Made by a program: the position numbers and the translations under genes. Positions 13,651 through 29,106 of a stretch of 36,894 nucleotides of DNA are shown here, piece after piece. The stretch comes from a bacterium (GTDB lineage: Bacteria; T1Sed10-126): NCBI GenBank assembly GCA_003554945.1, contig PWHN01000024.1:1-36894 (forward strand), given 5' to 3'. Position 1 is the first letter of the stretch, and every line of letters starts with the position of its first letter. The notes beneath the pieces are model-generated. The model was not told the origin of the DNA. It saw only the letters and a program-made list of their open reading frames with translations, and searched no databases.

Positions 13651-15420
13651 ATGAGTAAAACTACAGGTAAAATTACAAGCATCAGCGGTAATATGATTAC
13701 AGTTGATGTGGACGGCGAAGTAATCCAGAACGAAATTGGCTACGTACAGGCCGGTGAAGAGCACCTTAAGTCGGAGATTGTGCGTATCGACCGCAACACA
13801 GTCTTTATGCAGGTGTTTGAAGATACCAAGGGAGTCCGGGTCGGAGACGAAGTTGAGTTTACCGATCGGATGCTTTCGGTCGAACTCGGTCCAGGGCTTC
13901 TGAGCATGGTCTATGACGGACTACAAAACCCACTAAACGAACTGGCTGAAAATTACGGTTTTTTTATGGAACGGGGTGCAATTGTCGACTCGCTGGACCG
14001 CAGCGAAAAATGGGAGTTCACGCCAACGGCGGAAGTTGGTGACACTGTTGAAGCCGCCGACAAGCTGGGGCATGTGCCCGAGGGGATTTTCGAGCATCCC
14101 ATATTTGTACCCTTTCGTATGAGCGGTGAATATACAGTAGAATCAATAGCTGACCCCGGTGAATACACCATTGAAGAGACGATTGCAGAGGTTTCTGACG
14201 AACATGGTCAAACCCACGAACTCAACATGTATTTTCGCTGGCCTGTTAAGGAGGCAATTGACCTCTACGATCAGCAGCAGGTCCCACATGAACCTATGAT
14301 TACACAGACACGAATAATTGACTCCTTCTTCCCGGTTGCCAAAGGAGGCACCTACTGCATTCCCGGACCGTTTGGTTCAGGGAAAACAGTTCTCCAGCAG
14401 GTAACCAGCCGGTTTGCCGAAGTTGATGTCGTCGTGATTGCCGCCTGTGGAGAGCGGGCCGGTGAAGTTGTTGAGACGATACAGGAGTTTCCTGAACTTG
14501 AAGACCCGCGCACCGGCAAGTCTTTGATGGAACGGACAATAATTATCTGTAACACAAGCTCAATGCCGGTTGCGGCGCGAGAGTCTTCGGTCTACACTGC
14601 AGTAACACTTGGCGAATACTACCGCCAGCTTGGTCTTGATGTGCTGCTGTTAGCCGATTCAACTTCACGTTGGGCACAGGCGATGCGAGAACTTTCCGGC
14701 CGCCTGGAAGAAATCCCCGGCGAAGAGGCCTTCCCTGCTTACCTGGAGTCACGAATTGCTCAATTCTACGAACGGGCCGGCTACGTCGAGCTGGGCAACG
14801 GTGAAAATGGCAGTTTAACAATCGGCGGCACGGTCAGTCCTGCCGGTGGTAACTTTGAGGAGCCGGTCACACAATCAACACTGAAGGTTGTCGGGGCTTT
14901 CCACGGACTCTCCCGAGACCGCGCCAACCAGCGCCGCTATCCGGCAATTCATCCGCTCGATAGCTGGACTAAATACAGCGGTATGATTGATGATGAAAAA
15001 ATACAGGTTGGCCGAGATATTCTTGAAAAAGGTGACGAAGTCAACCAGATGATGAAGGTGGTTGGAGAAGAAGGAACAACTCTCGAAGACTATATTATCT
15101 ACCTGAAGTCTGAATTTTTAGACAACGTTTATCTGCAGCAGGACTCTTTTGACAACATAGAAGGGCGAACCTCCCTGCAACGACAGAAATATGTTTACGG
15201 GTTAATAGTTGAAATTCTGGAAGCTGATTTCGATCTTGAAGACAAAGCGAACGCCCGGGACTTTTTCAACCGCCTGCGACAGATGTTTACCGACTTAAAC
15301 TATACACGAATGGAACCCGAAGAGGAACGAGATAGCGACGAGATCATCAAAACCAAAGAATTCCAAGAACAGGAAGATGAGATCATGTCATTTATAGAGG
15401 AACATCTCGCCGATGCGTAA
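13651..15420 (+). CDS. atpA: V-type ATP synthase catalytic subunit A
   Basis: A 589-residue catalytic subunit. Walker A is GPFGSGKT (239-246) and the catalytic-glutamate motif GERAGE follows about 25 residues later. The [27 protein letters not shown] block and the non-homologous insertion of A/V-type alpha subunits (about 115-205) are present, so this is V-type and not F-type. With subunit B it forms the hexameric ATPase head. Its 3' end overlaps atpB by eight bases. Confidence 0.97.
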
Positions 15421-16711
15421 AGTATATAACAAAGTCTTAAACGTCTCCGGTAACGTTGTAACCGTAAGAGCGGAGGGAATCGCCTACGAAGAGCTGGCCG
15501 AGATAGAAGCCAGCCGTGGCACTTCCCTGGCTCAGGTAATCAAAATCGACGGCGAACTGGTCTCACTACAGGTGTTCGCCGGTAGTAAAGGAATCTCCAC
15601 CGACGCAGAGGTAAGGTTCCTGGGTCGGCCAATGCAGGTTAACTTCTCCGAAAATATGATCGGCCGGATTTTTAACGGCAGTGGTGAGCCGCGAGACGAA
15701 GGACCACGCCTGACCGAAAATATGATCGAAGTCGCCGGTCCCTCTGTAAACCCGGCGCGAAGAATCATTCCCAGCGAAATGATTCGGACAAACATCCCCA
15801 TGATTGACATCTTCAACTCGCTGGTTAAATCACAAAAACTACCAATATTTTCCGTCTCAGGTGAGCCTTATAACGAACTGCTCGCCCGTATCGCCCTGCA
15901 GGCGGAAGCTGATTTGATTATCCTCGGAAAAATTGGACTAAAATACGACGAATACATGTTTTTCCGCAACAGGCTGGAGGCCGGCGGCGCTCTCAGCCGC
16001 ACGATCTTTTTCGTTCACACTGCCGCTGATCCAATCGTTGAGAGCTTAATGGTTCCCGACCTCTCGCTTGCAGTTGCCGAGAACTTCGCCCTGCACGAGG
16101 ATCTCGACGTCCTGGTGCTGCTGTCGGACATGACCAACTTTGCCGACGCTCTTAAAGAGATTTCAATTACCATGGAAAAGGTTCCCTCAAACCGCGGCTA
16201 TCCCGGCGACCTCTACAGTCAACTGGCCTCACGCTACGAAAAAGCCGTTGACTTTGCAGATGCCGGGTCGGTAACTGTTCTGGCCGCCACAACTATGCCT
16301 GGTGATGATGTTACCCATCCGATTCCTGACAACACCGGCTATATTACTGAAGGGCAGTTTTACCTGCACGACGGTTATATTGACCCCTTTGGTTCACTGA
16401 GCCGCCTGAAGCAACTGGTAAACGAAGATTCACGTGACGACCACAGGGCTATCATGGACAACATGATTCAGCTCTACGCCGACTTTCGGGAAACCGAGGA
16501 GAAAAAGTCGATGGGTTTCCGGATGAGTGAGTGGGATAAAAAACTGCTCCACTACGGCGACCTGTTTGTGGACCAAATGATGGACCTGGAGGTAAACATT
16601 CCACTGGAAGAAGGTCTTGACCGGGGCTGGGACATCCTGGGACAATGTTTTGAGCCTGAAGAGACGGGAATTAAGACCGACTTGCTGGATAAATACTGGC
16701 CCGAGGATTAA
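15413..16711 (+). CDS. atpB: V-type ATP synthase subunit B
   Basis: A 432-residue non-catalytic nucleotide-binding subunit that alternates with A in the head. The degenerate phosphate-binding region [16 protein letters not shown] replaces a Walker A motif, as expected. [40 protein letters not shown] and [25 protein letters not shown] match the family closely. The ATG lies inside the end of atpA, so translation is probably coupled. Confidence 0.97.
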
Positions 16712-16717
16712 AGACCA

Positions 16718-17350
16718 TTGGCCAAAGTTCGTAAGACTAAGACCGAGTTAAAAAAGCAAAAGGAAGATCTGGAACGTTTTGAACGTTTCCTCCCCACCCT
16801 TGAACTGAAAAAGAAACAGTTGCTTGCCGTTATTAGAAGTCTGGAAAAGGAAATAGAGGAGATACGTTCCCAAATCCAACGCCGCCAGCAGGAAGTATCT
16901 AAATGGGCCGGAGTAATGGCCGAAGATATAGACCTGACCGAGTTTATAGAGCTTGATGAAATTAAAACCTACCCCGACAATGTGGCCGGCGTTGACACCG
17001 AATCTTTTGAAGAAGTAACCTTCAACGAAAATGACTACGATTACTTTGCAACCCCACTCTGGATAGATACAGCAGTCAAAGAAATTAAAACTCAGCTTGA
17101 ACTGCGGGGCAAAATTGTTGTATTTGAACGTCAAATTGAGGCCCTGCAGGAGGAGCTGCGGATTACTATTCAACGAATCAACCTGTTTGAAAAGGTTAAA
17201 ATTCCAGAAGCCAAAGAAAATATCAGGCAAATTCAGATCTACCTTGATGATTTACAAACGGCTGAAGTTGTGCGTGGGAAGATAGCCAAGGACAAAATCA
17301 AAGCCAAAAAAGAGGCCAAGCAGGCCGCGGCGGCGGGGGAAACAACATGA
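16718..17350 (+). CDS. atpD: V-type ATP synthase subunit D
   Basis: A 210-residue central-stalk (rotor) subunit. It is two long antiparallel helices (about 5-70 and 120-195) joined by a short variable section, the usual antiparallel coiled coil. TKTELKKQKEDLERFERFLPTL near the N-terminus and INLFEKVKIPEAKENIRQIQIYL near the C-terminus are characteristic. The start is a TTG at 16718, six bases after atpB. The stop overlaps the atpI start (ATGA). Confidence 0.92.
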   Translation: MAKVRKTKTELKKQKEDLERFERFLPTLELKKKQLLAVIRSLEKEIEEIRSQIQRRQQEVSKWAGVMAEDIDLTEFIELDEIKTYPDNVAGVDTESFEEVTFNENDYDYFATPLWIDTAVKEIKTQLELRGKIVVFERQIEALQEELRITIQRINLFEKVKIPEAKENIRQIQIYLDDLQTAEVVRGKIAKDKIKAKKEAKQAAAAGETT

Positions 17351-19170
17351 TAGTCGATATGAAAGAAGTTACCATCTTTGTCGCTGCTAACAACAGAGAT
17401 GCTGCGCTTGAGGAACTACGAGAACTTGGCATTTTACACGTTGAAAATATCCAACCGCCCGAATCTCGCCAGGTCAGCGGGTTAGAAGAAAAAATCCGGC
17501 AGGCAAACAGCGCTCTCCACATTTTGAGCGATCTTGAAGATCAGGAACAGCCTGAAGAGTCGAGTTTCGATATAGACGACGAGGAGCTTGTTGATAAGGT
17601 CCTTGACCTGCAAAAAGAAAAGCTTGACCTTCAGGATCAACTCAAACAGAAGCGTGAGCTGCTGGAATGGTATGACACCTGGGGGAAAATTCATAGTGAA
17701 GACCTGCGGACTCTTGAGCGACGCGGCGTTTACGTTCGCCTCTATAAGGCCGGCAAAAGTTACTACGAAGATCTTCCCGCCGACCTTCCCGTTTATAAGG
17801 TTAACGAAAGCGCCAGCCGGGTCTACCTGGCACTGGTTACTGAAGACAAAGACCAGGAGCTTGATTTAAAAGAAGAAAAACCGCCGGACAGTGAGTTTAA
17901 TGTAGTTGAGGGTGAATATAAACAGATCCAGGAGCGAATTGAAGGTATAAAATCAGAACTACTTAAATTAAGCAGCAGTATTGAAAAAATAGAGGTTTAC
18001 AGGAAAAAACTTCAAGAAGAGCTGGAGTTTGCCCGGGTGCGCAGTGGTATGGGGGCCGATACCGAAATCAGCTACCTGCGCGGCTTCTGTCCGGTAGAAG
18101 AGCTTGACTCCCTGAAAGAGGCCGCGGCAAGCGGCGGCTGGGGATATCTTATAAAAGACCCTGAGGACCCGCGTGAAGTTCCAACACTGCTCTCGGATTC
18201 ACTGTTCAGCCGGCTGGTTGACCCCATCTACCAATTTATGGGGACCCTGCCGGGCTACGACGAATTTGACGTTAGTACCGCATTCCTCGCCTTCTTTGCC
18301 GTTTTTGTGGCCCTGATAGTTGGTGACGCCGCCTACGGTCTCATTTATTTAGGTCTGACCGCCTTTGCTCACAAAAAATTCAGTGATAAGGTGCCCGGCG
18401 AAACTTTTACGCTCTTTTACATACTCAGTATTTCTACAGTAATCTGGGGGCTGCTAACCGGGACTATTTTTGGAGTTGAACAGCTCCAGGAAGTGCCGGT
18501 CCTGCGCTCAATTATTGTCGAACCAATCCGCACCTTTGCCGACAACGACTCGCTGCTCATGTTTATCACCTTTGCTATCGGCTGCGCCCAGCTGATGCTC
18601 GGTCACCTGATGCAGCTAATCAAGGCGCTGTTTAAACCACAGGCGCTGGCAGAAGCCGGCTGGATCGTAATCGTCGGCTCGATGCTGTTTGTTTCCGACG
18701 AGTTGGTATTGGGCGGTGAGATGGTTGGAGATTATGTCACATACGGTCATCTCGGGACTGCAATTGGCAGCGGTGGAATACTTGTTCTGCTTTTTGAAAA
18801 CTTCAAACCCGGAGAATTCTGGTCAGGAATTGCCTTCACGCTGGGCAACCTGCCAATGGACATAATCAGCGCCTTTGCTGATATCGTCTCTTATATTCGC
18901 CTCTTTGCAGTCGGACTGGCTACCGTGGTGATTATGGAGAGTTTTAACGAAATAGCAATGGAGGCGGCCGGAGGCGTTGAAAATATAATTGCCGCAATTA
19001 TCATTGCCGCAGTAATACTGGTCCTGGGACACGGACTGAATTTGATCCTCTGTTTGATGTCAATTGTAGTGCACGGGATTCGACTAAATATGCTGGAATT
19101 TTCCAATCACGTTGGTATGCAGTGGACGGGAAGCAGATATAATCCGTTTGCTAAAAAGAGTGATATGTAG
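17347..19170 (+). CDS. atpI: V-type ATP synthase subunit I
   Basis: A 607-residue membrane subunit (subunit a). Residues 1 to about 300 are a cytosolic, coiled-coil-rich arm. The rest is about seven TM helices forming the ion half-channels. The essential arginine is R518 in SYIRLFAVGLA (codon 18898-18900), and GDAAYG and HGLNLILCLMSIVVHGIRLNMLEF are conserved family blocks. It starts by ATGA overlap with atpD. A 309-bp gap, not a coupled junction, separates it from atpK. Confidence 0.95.
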   Translation: MIVDMKEVTIFVAANNRDAALEELRELGILHVENIQPPESRQVSGLEEKIRQANSALHILSDLEDQEQPEESSFDIDDEELVDKVLDLQKEKLDLQDQLKQKRELLEWYDTWGKIHSEDLRTLERRGVYVRLYKAGKSYYEDLPADLPVYKVNESASRVYLALVTEDKDQELDLKEEKPPDSEFNVVEGEYKQIQERIEGIKSELLKLSSSIEKIEVYRKKLQEELEFARVRSGMGADTEISYLRGFCPVEELDSLKEAAASGGWGYLIKDPEDPREVPTLLSDSLFSRLVDPIYQFMGTLPGYDEFDVSTAFLAFFAVFVALIVGDAAYGLIYLGLTAFAHKKFSDKVPGETFTLFYILSISTVIWGLLTGTIFGVEQLQEVPVLRSIIVEPIRTFADNDSLLMFITFAIGCAQLMLGHLMQLIKALFKPQALAEAGWIVIVGSMLFVSDELVLGGEMVGDYVTYGHLGTAIGSGGILVLLFENFKPGEFWSGIAFTLGNLPMDIISAFADIVSYIRLFAVGLATVVIMESFNEIAMEAAGGVENIIAAIIIAAVILVLGHGLNLILCLMSIVVHGIRLNMLEFSNHVGMQWTGSRYNPFAKKSDM

Positions 19171-19479
19171 GAGACTAATGAACAGAAATAGTTACGGCCA
19201 AACAAATTTTAGGCTCTTTTTAAATTTTTGCTGGAGACAGGCTACTCAAAGGTGTTGGTAGTTATTTAAGTAGCCTGATTAAATCCTCTCCTAAAAGAAG
19301 AAAGGGGAGTAAAAAAATGGATTGCGGGTCAGGGCCCGCAATGACAAACCCTGGAACATTATACGTTCCCACAATTACGCGGGGAAATACTAAACAGTTA
19401 CTAAATGCTTTTAAAATTCTGTTTGATTTTGTGAAAAATTTTTAGAAAATCAACTAATTTGTAGAAAGGAGAAGTTGTT
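19171..19479. repeat. repeat-bearing gap between atpI and atpK
   Basis: CAGGCTACT (19238-19246) pairs with AGTAGCCTG (19269-19277) across 22 bases. A purine-rich tract follows (about 19288-19318), then a dispersed hairpin ATTGCGGG (19321-19328) with CCCGCAAT (19335-19342), then a CCCTGGAAC..ACGTTCC palindrome at 19348-19372 shared with 23861-23888. The last 40 bases are AT-rich and end in AGAAAGGAG, the atpK ribosome-binding site. I see no convincing promoter for atpK. Confidence 0.75.
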
Positions 19480-19908
19480 ATGTTAGGTGATTTAGGTTTG
19501 TCGTTGACACTCGCGGCTATCGGTTCCGCGATCGGTACGGGGGTGGCGGGAATGTCCGCAATCGGCGCCTGGAAGAAAGCATACGCCGAAAATCGGGCCG
19601 CTCCCTTCATTATTATAGCTTTTGTTGGTGCCCCTCTGACCCAGACAATTTATGGCATGATTCTGCGTGACGCTATACTGGACGCTTCCTGGGCTGAAAT
19701 GCCGGTCTGGTTCCCGTTAATCCTTGGTGGCGTTGCAGGAATAGCAATGGGCTTTTCCGCCTTTTTCCAGGGTAAGGCTGGCGCACGGGCTTCCGACGCC
19801 CTTGGTGAAACAGGCGAAGGTTTCGGTAACTATATTATGGTCGTTGGTATTGTTGAGACCGTAGCCCTGTTTGTGATGGTCTTCAGTATGATTGCTCTGC
19901 CGGGGTAA
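19480..19908 (+). CDS. atpK: V-type ATP synthase proteolipid subunit K
   Basis: A 142-residue four-TM ring subunit made of two tandem hairpins, the duplicated V-type form. Only the second hairpin has the ion-binding carboxylate, E126 in GIVETVALF; the first has Q55 at the matching place. T54 and Q55 (PLTQTIYG), Q97 (FFQGKAG) and E126 correspond to T64, Q65, Q110 and E139 of Enterococcus hirae NtpK, which coordinate Na+. A Na+-translocating enzyme is therefore predicted (inference from the ligand set). AGAAAGGAG precedes the ATG. Confidence 0.95.
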   Translation: MLGDLGLSLTLAAIGSAIGTGVAGMSAIGAWKKAYAENRAAPFIIIAFVGAPLTQTIYGMILRDAILDASWAEMPVWFPLILGGVAGIAMGFSAFFQGKAGARASDALGETGEGFGNYIMVVGIVETVALFVMVFSMIALPG

Positions 19909-27485: not shown

Positions 27486-28103
27486 TCAGGGGTTCTCTAT
27501 TGATTCAGCAGGAACGCTTAATATTGACTCTCGCAACTCATCATAAGTTTCTGCAACAGGAAAATCGCTGCACTTCTCACGCAGCTCCTGGGGAGGATTG
27601 AAAAAAATAGGATGATGAGCTTCCTCAAGCATGGAAAGATCGTTGTGTGAGTCACCAATCGCCACGATAAAAAAACCTATGTCGCGAAGTTTTTCCAGCG
27701 CCCGCCATTTCATTCCCCGGATACGAAGCTTATAACCGGTTATACGCCCCTTGGAATCGGTGCTGAATTGGTTGGCAAAGAGGTTATAACCGCCAAACTC
27801 CCAGACAAGTGGATCGGAGAGTTCGTGGAAGGTATCTGAAATGATCATTATCTGACCACGGCGCCGACCCCAGTTTAAAAACTCAGTGCTTCCCGGAAAC
27901 GCCATCACGTCTTGCGCCACTTTCTGCAGGTCCTGAAGCCGCAAATCCTCACGGTTTAAGACATTAACACGGTGTTCCATTAACTCCTCAAAATCTGGTA
28001 TGTCCCGCGTAGTTAAATGCAATTCGTCTATCCCATACTCTGACGCTATAGCGTCCCAGATTTCAGGAATTAAGACTCCTTCAAGATCAGTCGCAATAAT
28101 CAA
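27486..28103 (-). CDS. thrH: ThrH-type phosphoserine/homoserine phosphotransferase (HAD family)
   Basis: A 205-residue HAD phosphatase. The first motif is TDLEGVLIPEIW, with the variant DLEG in place of DxDG that is peculiar to ThrH. HLTTRDIPDFEELM, SDTFHELSDPL and the last motif AIGDSHNDLSMLEEAH follow the Pseudomonas ThrH order. That enzyme removes phosphate from phosphoserine and can pass it to homoserine. In vivo use here is unproven; serine synthesis is the simplest reading. The start is a TTG at 28103 with a poor ribosome-binding site. It lies 14 bases upstream of ligA. Confidence 0.9.
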   Translation of the reverse strand: MIIATDLEGVLIPEIWDAIASEYGIDELHLTTRDIPDFEELMEHRVNVLNREDLRLQDLQKVAQDVMAFPGSTEFLNWGRRRGQIMIISDTFHELSDPLVWEFGGYNLFANQFSTDSKGRITGYKLRIRGMKWRALEKLRDIGFFIVAIGDSHNDLSMLEEAHHPIFFNPPQELREKCSDFPVAETYDELRESILSVPAESIENP

Positions 28104-28273
28104 TCAAACCTACGCCCCTTTCAGCGCTTATGTTAAAATAATTAATACTTACGCAACATATTTTATCTTTCTACCATACTAAAGTTTTGCGAGCAAGATA
28201 GGCTATATCTTATTTTCTCATGCTCCCGAGCACTTAATCGAGAGTGTGATGATGAGTGAGTTTACGCTATTCT

Positions 28274-28404
28274 GGAGCCACCTGCAAATGTTTTTCTCAT
28301 TCTCGGTTGTCTTCCAGACAACCTCCGAGGTATAGCCGGTTGCAAACCAGGCCCTCATGGCCTGCAACCGGCTATAATTCCGAAAAACACCTGCAGGTAG
28401 CTCC
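28274..28404 (+). other. three-helix structured element, copy A
   Basis: P1: 28274-28286 pairs with 28392-28404 (12 of 13 pairs), continued by TGTTTTT (28289-28295) with AAAAACA (28383-28389). P2: GGTTGTC (28305-28311) with GACAACC (28317-28323), loop TTCCA, closed by CTC (28302-28304) and GAG (28327-28329) with a TCC bulge. P3: TATAGCCGGTTGCA (28331-28344) with its 14-base complement at 28363-28376, then a five-base 5' bulge, GGCC/GGCC and loop CTCAT. Unpaired scaffold words CATTCTCG, TCCGAGGTATA and TATAATTCCG are shared with copy B on the opposite strand. No ORF explains it. The thrH-side spacer 28104-28273 holds nothing else I recognise. Confidence 0.85.
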
Positions 28405-28426
28405 CTGTGTTGTTAAAAAAACGGTA

Positions 28427-28564
28427 GTTCTGAGAGCCGATGTGTTTCCGACGGATTTATAAAGACCTCAAACCCCAGGATGGGGTTGTTTTGAGGTCTT
28501 TATACCTCGGAAGTGGCCACGAGGGCCACGAGAATGATGTCAGAAATATATCGGTTCTCAGAAC
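28427..28564 (-). other. three-helix structured element, copy B (inverted relative to A)
   Basis: P1: 28427-28441 pairs with 28550-28564 (14 of 15, the odd one G-T). P2: GTGGCC (28513-28518) with GGCCAC (28524-28529), five-base loop. P3: TATAAAGACCTCAAA (28458-28472) with 28490-28504, 15 perfect pairs, then CCCC/GGGG (28473-28476, 28482-28485), a five-base loop and a four-base bulge. Read on the minus strand, arm order, bulge side, loop sizes and the words CATTCTCG, TTCCGAGGTATA and TATAAATCCG match copy A, while the stems differ in nearly every base. The 22 bases between copies are AT-rich. Confidence 0.85.
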
Positions 28565-28620
28565 AAGGAAACTGCAAATCTTTAGCTATTGTAACAATTC
28601 TATTAAAAATGTGACCTAAA

Positions 28621-29106
28621 TTGAATTGTTCCTTGTCTCCCATTTTTGTGGCTGACGTTATGCTGGGAAAACTAAGTCGTTATCTGCTCATCTGTGGTTA
28701 CGACTGTGAGTATCGAAAAAACTTTCCCGATCGGAAGCTGGTCGAGTTTGCCCGCTCAGAGCAACGGATTATACTGAGCCGCGACCACGAGCTCTGTTTA
28801 GAGCTGGCCGCCGATCTGCCGACAACTCTAATTCGCTCAACCAAACTGCGCAAGCAGTTAAGACAGCTTAAAGAAGAATATGAATTGACATTTACCCGTG
28901 AACAACTTTTTCAACGCTGCCTTAAGTGTAACCAAAAAGTTGTTCCGGTAGAAAGAAAAACGGTATCTGGTAAAGTACCTGCAAAAACTTACAACTGGAT
29001 TGACGATTATTACCGCTGTTCTGACTGTGCCAGCATATACTGGCACGGTACCCATTTTGAAGCAATCGAAAAAAGACTGAACAGGTGGAATCTACTCGAT
29101 GATTGA
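28621..29106 (+). CDS. Mut7-C RNase-domain zinc-ribbon protein
   Basis: A 161-residue protein of the Mut7-C family, a PIN-like fold predicted to be an RNase. It opens with FVADVMLGKLSRYLLICGYD (D12 is the expected catalytic acid), followed by RIILSRDHEL (D55). A C-terminal zinc ribbon has RCLKCN (C100, C103) and YRCSDCASIYWHGTH (C133, C136). The length is typical. The only start that keeps D12 is the TTG at 28621; no good Shine-Dalgarno is visible, so a weak or leaderless start is possible. The stop overlaps thiI by eight bases. The RNA target is unknown. Confidence 0.85.
   Translation: MNCSLSPIFVADVMLGKLSRYLLICGYDCEYRKNFPDRKLVEFARSEQRIILSRDHELCLELAADLPTTLIRSTKLRKQLRQLKEEYELTFTREQLFQRCLKCNQKVVPVERKTVSGKVPAKTYNWIDDYYRCSDCASIYWHGTHFEAIEKRLNRWNLLDD

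Follow-up and report, generated by a model that had tools for sequence, protein, structure and literature searches.

We identified a family of about 60 interspersed copies of a three-helix element in a single bacterial genome, divided by stem sequence into about nine subfamilies (T1-T9). These copies are probably MITE-like non-autonomous transposable elements that carry an orphan structured RNA, the latter being predicted from sequence covariation and G.U bias. The junction words are common to the nine subfamilies, and the stems between them are unrelated in sequence yet still paired: one fold is preserved, with its joining segments and loops fixed. Miniature transposons are usually seen as passive hairpins. 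So many stem-divergent copies built around the same junction and loops open a way to ask if the RNA aboard a selfish element is functional. The subfamilies represent a natural mutagenesis series of one RNA within one cell, and their nested, module-swapping architecture shows how hairpins get inserted, exchanged and lost.

The element was first noticed in the window, i.e., the whole stretch of 36,894 nucleotides that was analysed, in a 517-bp intergenic gap between a gene for a HAD-type hydrolase (27486-28103, minus strand) and a Mut7-C RNase gene (28621-29106, plus strand). A first-pass annotation made from the sequence had described there an inverted pair of three-helix elements, copy A (28274-28404) and copy B (28427-28564, reverse). 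Both copies lie at these positions and fold as it described, copy A with -71.1 kcal/mol (z -10.0) and copy B with -69.6 kcal/mol (z -9.5); in each case none of 200 dinucleotide shuffles folded as well. The two-sequence alignment of A and B places common words between otherwise differing stems, and alignment and folds agree with the annotation on these words, on the order of the arms and on the bulge of 4-5 nt below the tip of P3. The cores are where it placed them, but the real unit is larger (28179-28585) and is bounded by inverted repeats. Its parts are the following.

28179..28585 (407 bp), no strand assigned: whole element, MITE-like, with inverted terminal repeats at both bounds (TIR pattern search, alignment with other copies, fold)
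28179..28195, plus: left terminal inverted repeat CTAAAGTTTTGCGAGCA (TIR pattern search)
28195..28225, plus: remnant of the left core slot, corresponding to the 5' arm of a T4-type core, AAGATAGGCTATATCTTATTTTCTCATGCTC, with the decayed junction word CATGCTC (compared with the T4 copies C34, C69 and C106)
28226..28273, plus: 5' flank of the nested T2 unit (CCGAGCACTTAATCGAG...GCTATTCT), shared with C69, C17 and C105:13745-14050
28274..28404, minus (probable RNA sense): copy A, subfamily T2, three-helix core with P1 (core model match 28394-28285)
28298..28304, plus: junction word CATTCTC of copy A, joining P1 and P2
28305..28323, minus: P2 hairpin of copy A, RNA-sense loop CTGGAAG, which fits C-NNGAN-G
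28331..28376, minus: long P3 arm of copy A, with a 5-nt bulge, a 4-bp tip and the RNA-sense loop CATGAGG
28405..28426, no strand assigned: linker between both cores, where both RNAs would start and run outwards (sequence; order in C114 and C106)
28427..28564, plus (probable RNA sense): copy B, subfamily T1, three-helix core with P1 (core model match 28440-28550)
28458..28504, plus: P3 arm of copy B, with perfect 15-bp arms and the loop CAGGATG
28569..28585, minus: right terminal inverted repeat CTAAAGATTTGCAGTTT (TIR pattern search)

This copy belongs to the CTAAAGTTTTGCG (CTAAAG) class of terminal repeats and has no convincing target duplication at its ends. Elsewhere in the window, positions 13651-19908 hold a V/A-type ATP synthase cluster (A, B, D and c subunits), here in a bacterial draft genome.

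We searched for further copies in the genome of origin (G000), a draft assembly of 2.2 Mb in 121 contigs that is 93.5% complete. The scaffold pattern occurred 17 times, and the reversed-pattern control did not occur at all. A covariance model built from copies A and B only (R1), the search that the annotation had advised, matched 57 separate loci. For a second model (R2) we took 18 representatives, written in RNA sense; it gave 61 matches to whole and partial copies, among which a few may be two sides of one collapsed repeat because some copies lie at contig ends.

The core has the same order in all subfamilies: P1, a joining segment of about 8 nt, P2, a joining segment, P3, and a joining segment of 6 nt. 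In RNA sense it reads P1-C-GGAUUU-AUA(P3)UAU-ACCUCGGAR-(P2)-RAGAAUGA-G-P1. P2 has 6-8 bp, P3 has about 13 bp followed by the 4-5 nt bulge and a 4-bp tip, and both are near-perfect Watson-Crick palindromes. Terminal loops of the form C-NNGAN-G were found in 39 of 41 P2 and 40 of 41 P3 hairpins (79/82 in all). In a MAFFT alignment of the 18 representatives, which was not fitted to the structure, 27 columns were invariant, nearly all of them in the joining segments, the base of P3 and the P2 loop. In the same alignment, 86.2% of the cells of the stems were paired (58.1 ± 1.4 in shuffles), 183 cells carried double changes (59 ± 6 in shuffles), and the covariation score was 0.716 (0.200 ± 0.018 in shuffles), these changes being mainly among nine subfamilies of one genome and therefore not fully independent events. 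Sliding the partners by 1-3 columns gave a covariation of at most 0.26. When all copies were aligned to the model, 88.2% of the cells were paired (62% in shuffles), covariation was 0.662 (0.19 in shuffles), and 348 cells had changes on both sides. The annotation had called the stems of A and B fully covarying, and this is true of the family well beyond that pair, with covariation above the shuffled and the slid controls. P2 and P3 are the best-supported helices; P1 has weaker support owing to internal loops that are subfamily-specific. RNAalifold adds the pairs 13-71, 15-69 and 16-68, in columns that vary never or hardly.

Both strands of the core fold well, so energy cannot tell which of them acts. 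We compared G.U with A.C pairs, counting each distinct state of subfamily, position and pair once. On the strand opposite to the one in which the annotation had written the cores, there were 36 distinct G.U against 9 A.C (p=6.6e-5), with ratios of 28:4 in P1, a modest 6:1 in P3, and 2:4, i.e., no excess, in P2. An RNA strand tolerates G.U pairs, and a DNA hairpin would give no such strand bias. The one-sided excess thus suggests that the functional molecule is probably an RNA of the opposite strand, and the counts speak against the original orientation. Strand-biased mutation could in principle mimic such an excess, which is evidence and not proof.

We worked on the genome stretches around the matches, and alignments of the flanks showed the cores to be parts of longer units that have inverted ends. 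These elements span about 200-410 bp, from complete GGCTCT-class elements of 200-292 bp to the 407 bp of the window copy, and are thus below the limit of about 600 bp used for MITEs. There are two main classes of terminal repeats. One ends in CTAAAGTTTTGCG (CTAAAG), and the other (GGCTCT) ends in GGCTCTRTTGAAATCCTT, which was found at 72 sites (7 in controls); the T3 and T5 elements have the terminal repeat GGCTCTRTTGAAATCC. We found six exact 8-bp target duplications in the GGCTCT class, and 14 of its 29 candidate end pairs matched at 6 or more of the 8 bp, against 2.6% of mismatched pairings. This is also the best-preserved class of elements. It has moved through its ends, and we regard the mobility of the element class as an observation.

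The elements have no coding capacity: there was no transposase gene among the ORFs of any element examined, and no long TIR pair enclosing an ORF was found. The ISL3 transposase (PF01610) was absent from the draft assembly G000, and the IS6 transposase (PF13610) was absent from both genomes of the phylum that were examined, G000 being a draft. Given inverted ends, lack of coding capacity and, in one class, 8-bp duplications, the elements were most likely moved by a DDE-type transposase acting in trans, of which the searches for ISL3 and IS6 in the assembly gave no example. We considered whether some hybrid copies (L060-L062, L067 and L069-L074) could be ends of ORF-containing transposons, and rejected this: they have the same cores with longer inserts in P2. 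Some core-less copies have exact target duplications (L163, L175), so that the core may not be needed for movement.

The mobility of the elements raises the question of whether the fold acts as DNA. It would then be a cruciform or a single-strand hairpin recognised by a transposase or recombinase, there would be no functional RNA, and the stems would serve as spacers for an enzyme that reads the junction. Such a role would suit cores that lie in mobile elements and are nested in each other's hairpins, the occurrence of one core with different terminal repeats, and the Watson-Crick perfection of P2 and P3. Yet it gives no reason why G.U should outnumber A.C on one strand, and the core-less elements with exact 8-bp duplications indicate that the ends alone mark the transposon, even if the deletion of the core may postdate the insertion. 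We find this explanation unlikely. The annotation had left open a structured RNA, a mobile DNA element or a recombination site. Of these, the first two are best combined: inverted terminal repeats and 8-bp target duplications make the unit a transposable element, covariation and the one-sided G.U excess favour a structured RNA within it, and we saw no sign of a recombination site.

Elements are nested in one another. A T5 element sits inside T6 elements, a CTAAAG-class element (T1/T2) is found within a T3 linker, flanked left and right by GATATTTA (L193/L192), and the place of P2 in T4 cores is taken by T2 units in C69, in C102 and, in decayed form, in the window copy. P2 has also been exchanged between subfamilies: the T1 core of C62 has the P2 of T3, and the cores at C14:49862 (T1) and in C5 (T3) have a T2-like P2. 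One and the same core is found with more than one kind of terminal repeat. The majority of copies have only one core, so that the inverted pair of the annotation does not describe the family at large, but it is found at three loci. Besides the window, head-to-head cores occur in C114 (2-112 and 197-306) and C106 (35791-35900 and 36043-36147), in the same order and with the RNA 5' ends facing across the linker. This layout recurs in the CTAAAGTTTTGCG class as one of its architectures. A number of copies with one core or none seem to be products of internal deletion, which is clear for the core-less copies L149, L175 and L176, and some cores were lost by deletion between short repeats. We did not keep the idea that cores jump into the tips of hairpins, as the "empty" T4 hairpin in T1 can equally be a deletion between two TATCTT repeats.

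Two subfamilies have unusual P2 arms. In the T2 cores L060, L061, L062 and L067 (C81, C24, C102 and C95), the P2 loop has grown to about 100 nt and contains the conserved AGGAGGTTAC...ATAGATATCGTGG...GGAAAAAGCCTCCATTGC. In L062 the expanded loop could encode a peptide of 19 aa (ATGAGTACAGGAGG...), and L060 has a stop. In the T3 cores L069, L070, L072, L073 and L179 (C98, C38, C47, C102 and C97), P2 is a long hairpin, CCGAGCACTCAAT...ATTGAGTGCTCGG, whose stem recurs as the outer one of the nested T2 unit and whose loop is different.

This plasticity bears on a second explanation, in which the elements are ordinary MITEs lacking RNA function, template switching during replication and gene conversion repair their palindromes, which keeps the stems paired, and the junction words are ancestral and shared by recombination. 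Palindromes are indeed unstable in this genome, P2 having been swapped between subfamilies and cores deleted, and P2 and P3 have little G.U excess. But repair of palindromes would not hold 27 columns invariant while the flanking stems are unrelated between subfamilies, nor would it maintain the C-NNGAN-G loops in 79 of 82 cases, and the 28:4 bias of P1 is left over. The related proposal of the annotation, that the element rebuilds its own palindromes, was not borne out as such, although nesting and P2 exchange show swapping and insertion of hairpins. Neither repair nor a fold acting as DNA accounts for the strand bias or for the invariance of the loops, and we give repair a low probability.

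How might a structured RNA carried by a transposable element work? The core would be transcribed from the strand favoured by the G.U counts and act as a folded RNA, in which the joining segments and the two like-shaped loops may form a binding or active surface. The stems would be only spacers, free to drift with compensation while the surface stays fixed. Such a payload might help the element to persist by acting, via a host protein or a ligand, on neighbouring or other transcripts. A stronger version is that the payload is an undescribed class of RNA with an activity of its own, e.g., a protein-binding decoy or a catalytic three-way junction, and that the fold is kept by selection acting on this RNA rather than on the DNA ends, with complete turnover of the stems inside one genome. 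We put this version forward tentatively, as possible but somewhat doubtful.

A special case of the RNA-carrying element is a decoy for CsrA, in which paired GGA-type loops on two hairpins would sequester CsrA dimers in the manner of CsrB. The genome encodes CsrA in a single gene (G000:C104:42878-43036, L194, 89 bits). In three subfamilies the P3 loop reads CAGGAUG, an exact fit to the CsrB repeat CAGGA(U/A/C)G (PMC7652899). Each RNA has two loops and two junction GGA, and GGA is present in 65 of the 79 loops that fit the consensus. The other 14 have GA without GGA, and GGA is not enriched relative to dinucleotide shuffles (3.92 vs 3.71 ± 0.22); for these two reasons we consider a CsrA decoy quite improbable. 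SELEX preferred ACA-containing hexaloops on short stems, whereas the loops found here are mostly pentaloops on stable stems. The other genome of the phylum (G001) also has one CsrA gene, yet has no element.

The genes around the elements show a pattern that is suggestive only. On the RNA-upstream side, 36 of 49 copies have a divergent neighbouring gene, one oriented away from the element; on the RNA-downstream side, the start of the gene faces the element in 22 of 45, which is no bias. A candidate promoter-like sequence, TTGATT-17-TATCTA, lies in the T3 linker (e.g., L054:1322-1557), immediately before the 5' end of the RNA. Two other repeats were noticed in these regions. A second, unrelated interspersed repeat (CTCTCCGAAAAGTCCCCTCTCCCCTGGAGGGAGAGGG...GTGAGGGGG) adjoins or sits within the truncated T3 elements L072, L170 and L182 (C47, C62 and C8), and the short dispersed repeat AAGATGGATTCCGGCTCGNGGGCCGGAATGACG is found near several elements, in the flanks of C13:9696, C14:3526 and C104:73522.

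Among the genomes examined, only one has the family, and it comes from a phylum that has been sampled very sparsely. The annotation had recommended a search of relatives, and this gave no copies: R2 had no match in G001, the only other genome of the phylum examined. The core pattern was absent from 385 further genomes, and there were no copies in viral contigs, phages or plasmids. Among 84,980 GTDB species, the exact scaffold pattern had four matches, none of them in a Bacillus. These are chance-like: L050 alone reached a score with the model (21.8 bits), and its sequence does not fold (z -0.26). Rfam returned nothing credible at gathering or permissive thresholds, the best sub-threshold models being miRNA and STAXI. 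Hence, the outcomes that the annotation had named as contrary to its view did not occur: more copies exist, their stems covary, and an Rfam match is absent.

The ends of some elements may resemble those of a known family of insertion sequences. IS6/IS26 elements end in GGTTCTGTTGCAAA and make 8-bp duplications; duplications of this length occur here too, and the T3/T5 terminal repeat may be IS6-like. The family differs from IS6/IS26 in that neither of the two genomes of the phylum examined has the corresponding transposase domain, and the CTAAAGTTTTGCG class is unlike IS6 ends. RNAs of the CsrB/RsmZ type also have GGA hairpin loops, and the host has CsrA; here, in contrast, GGA is missing from some loops and shows no enrichment, and the RNA would be borne by a transposable element. 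REP/REPIN repeats, linked to RAYT transposases, are likewise intergenic palindromic repeats that are mobilised in trans and inherited within one lineage. REPs are described as palindromes of 20-40 bp (PMC3733652). They differ from this family, whose TIRs and target duplications point to ordinary DNA transposition.

MITEs derived from insertion sequences, such as the QMITEs of Coxiella, are short, non-coding elements of AT-rich intergenic regions with TIRs, target duplications and stem-loop transcripts (PMC10969869). Copies of ordinary MITEs share primary sequence, whereas the subfamilies here have only joining segments and loops in common, and their unrelated stems covary. The bcr repeats of the Bacillus cereus group (bcr1-bcr18) are intergenic, multi-copy, group-specific repeats of 100-400 bp. 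Among them, bcr1-3 are MITE-like, bcr10 and bcr18 have a conserved RNA secondary structure, about half of the copies are transcribed, and mobility is tied to a TTTAT motif and a mechanism resembling site-specific recombination (PMC3446304, PMC6542083). They resemble this family in their intergenic location, copy number and size, and in that some are MITE-like and some have RNA structure. Judged from these descriptions, our family is set apart by long TIRs, 8-bp duplications in one class, nesting and two-core elements, and by several TIR classes around one covarying core, with CTAAAG and GGCTCT ends instead of TTTAT. By analogy, MITEs and bcr repeats are the nearest described systems, and this family shares their life-style.
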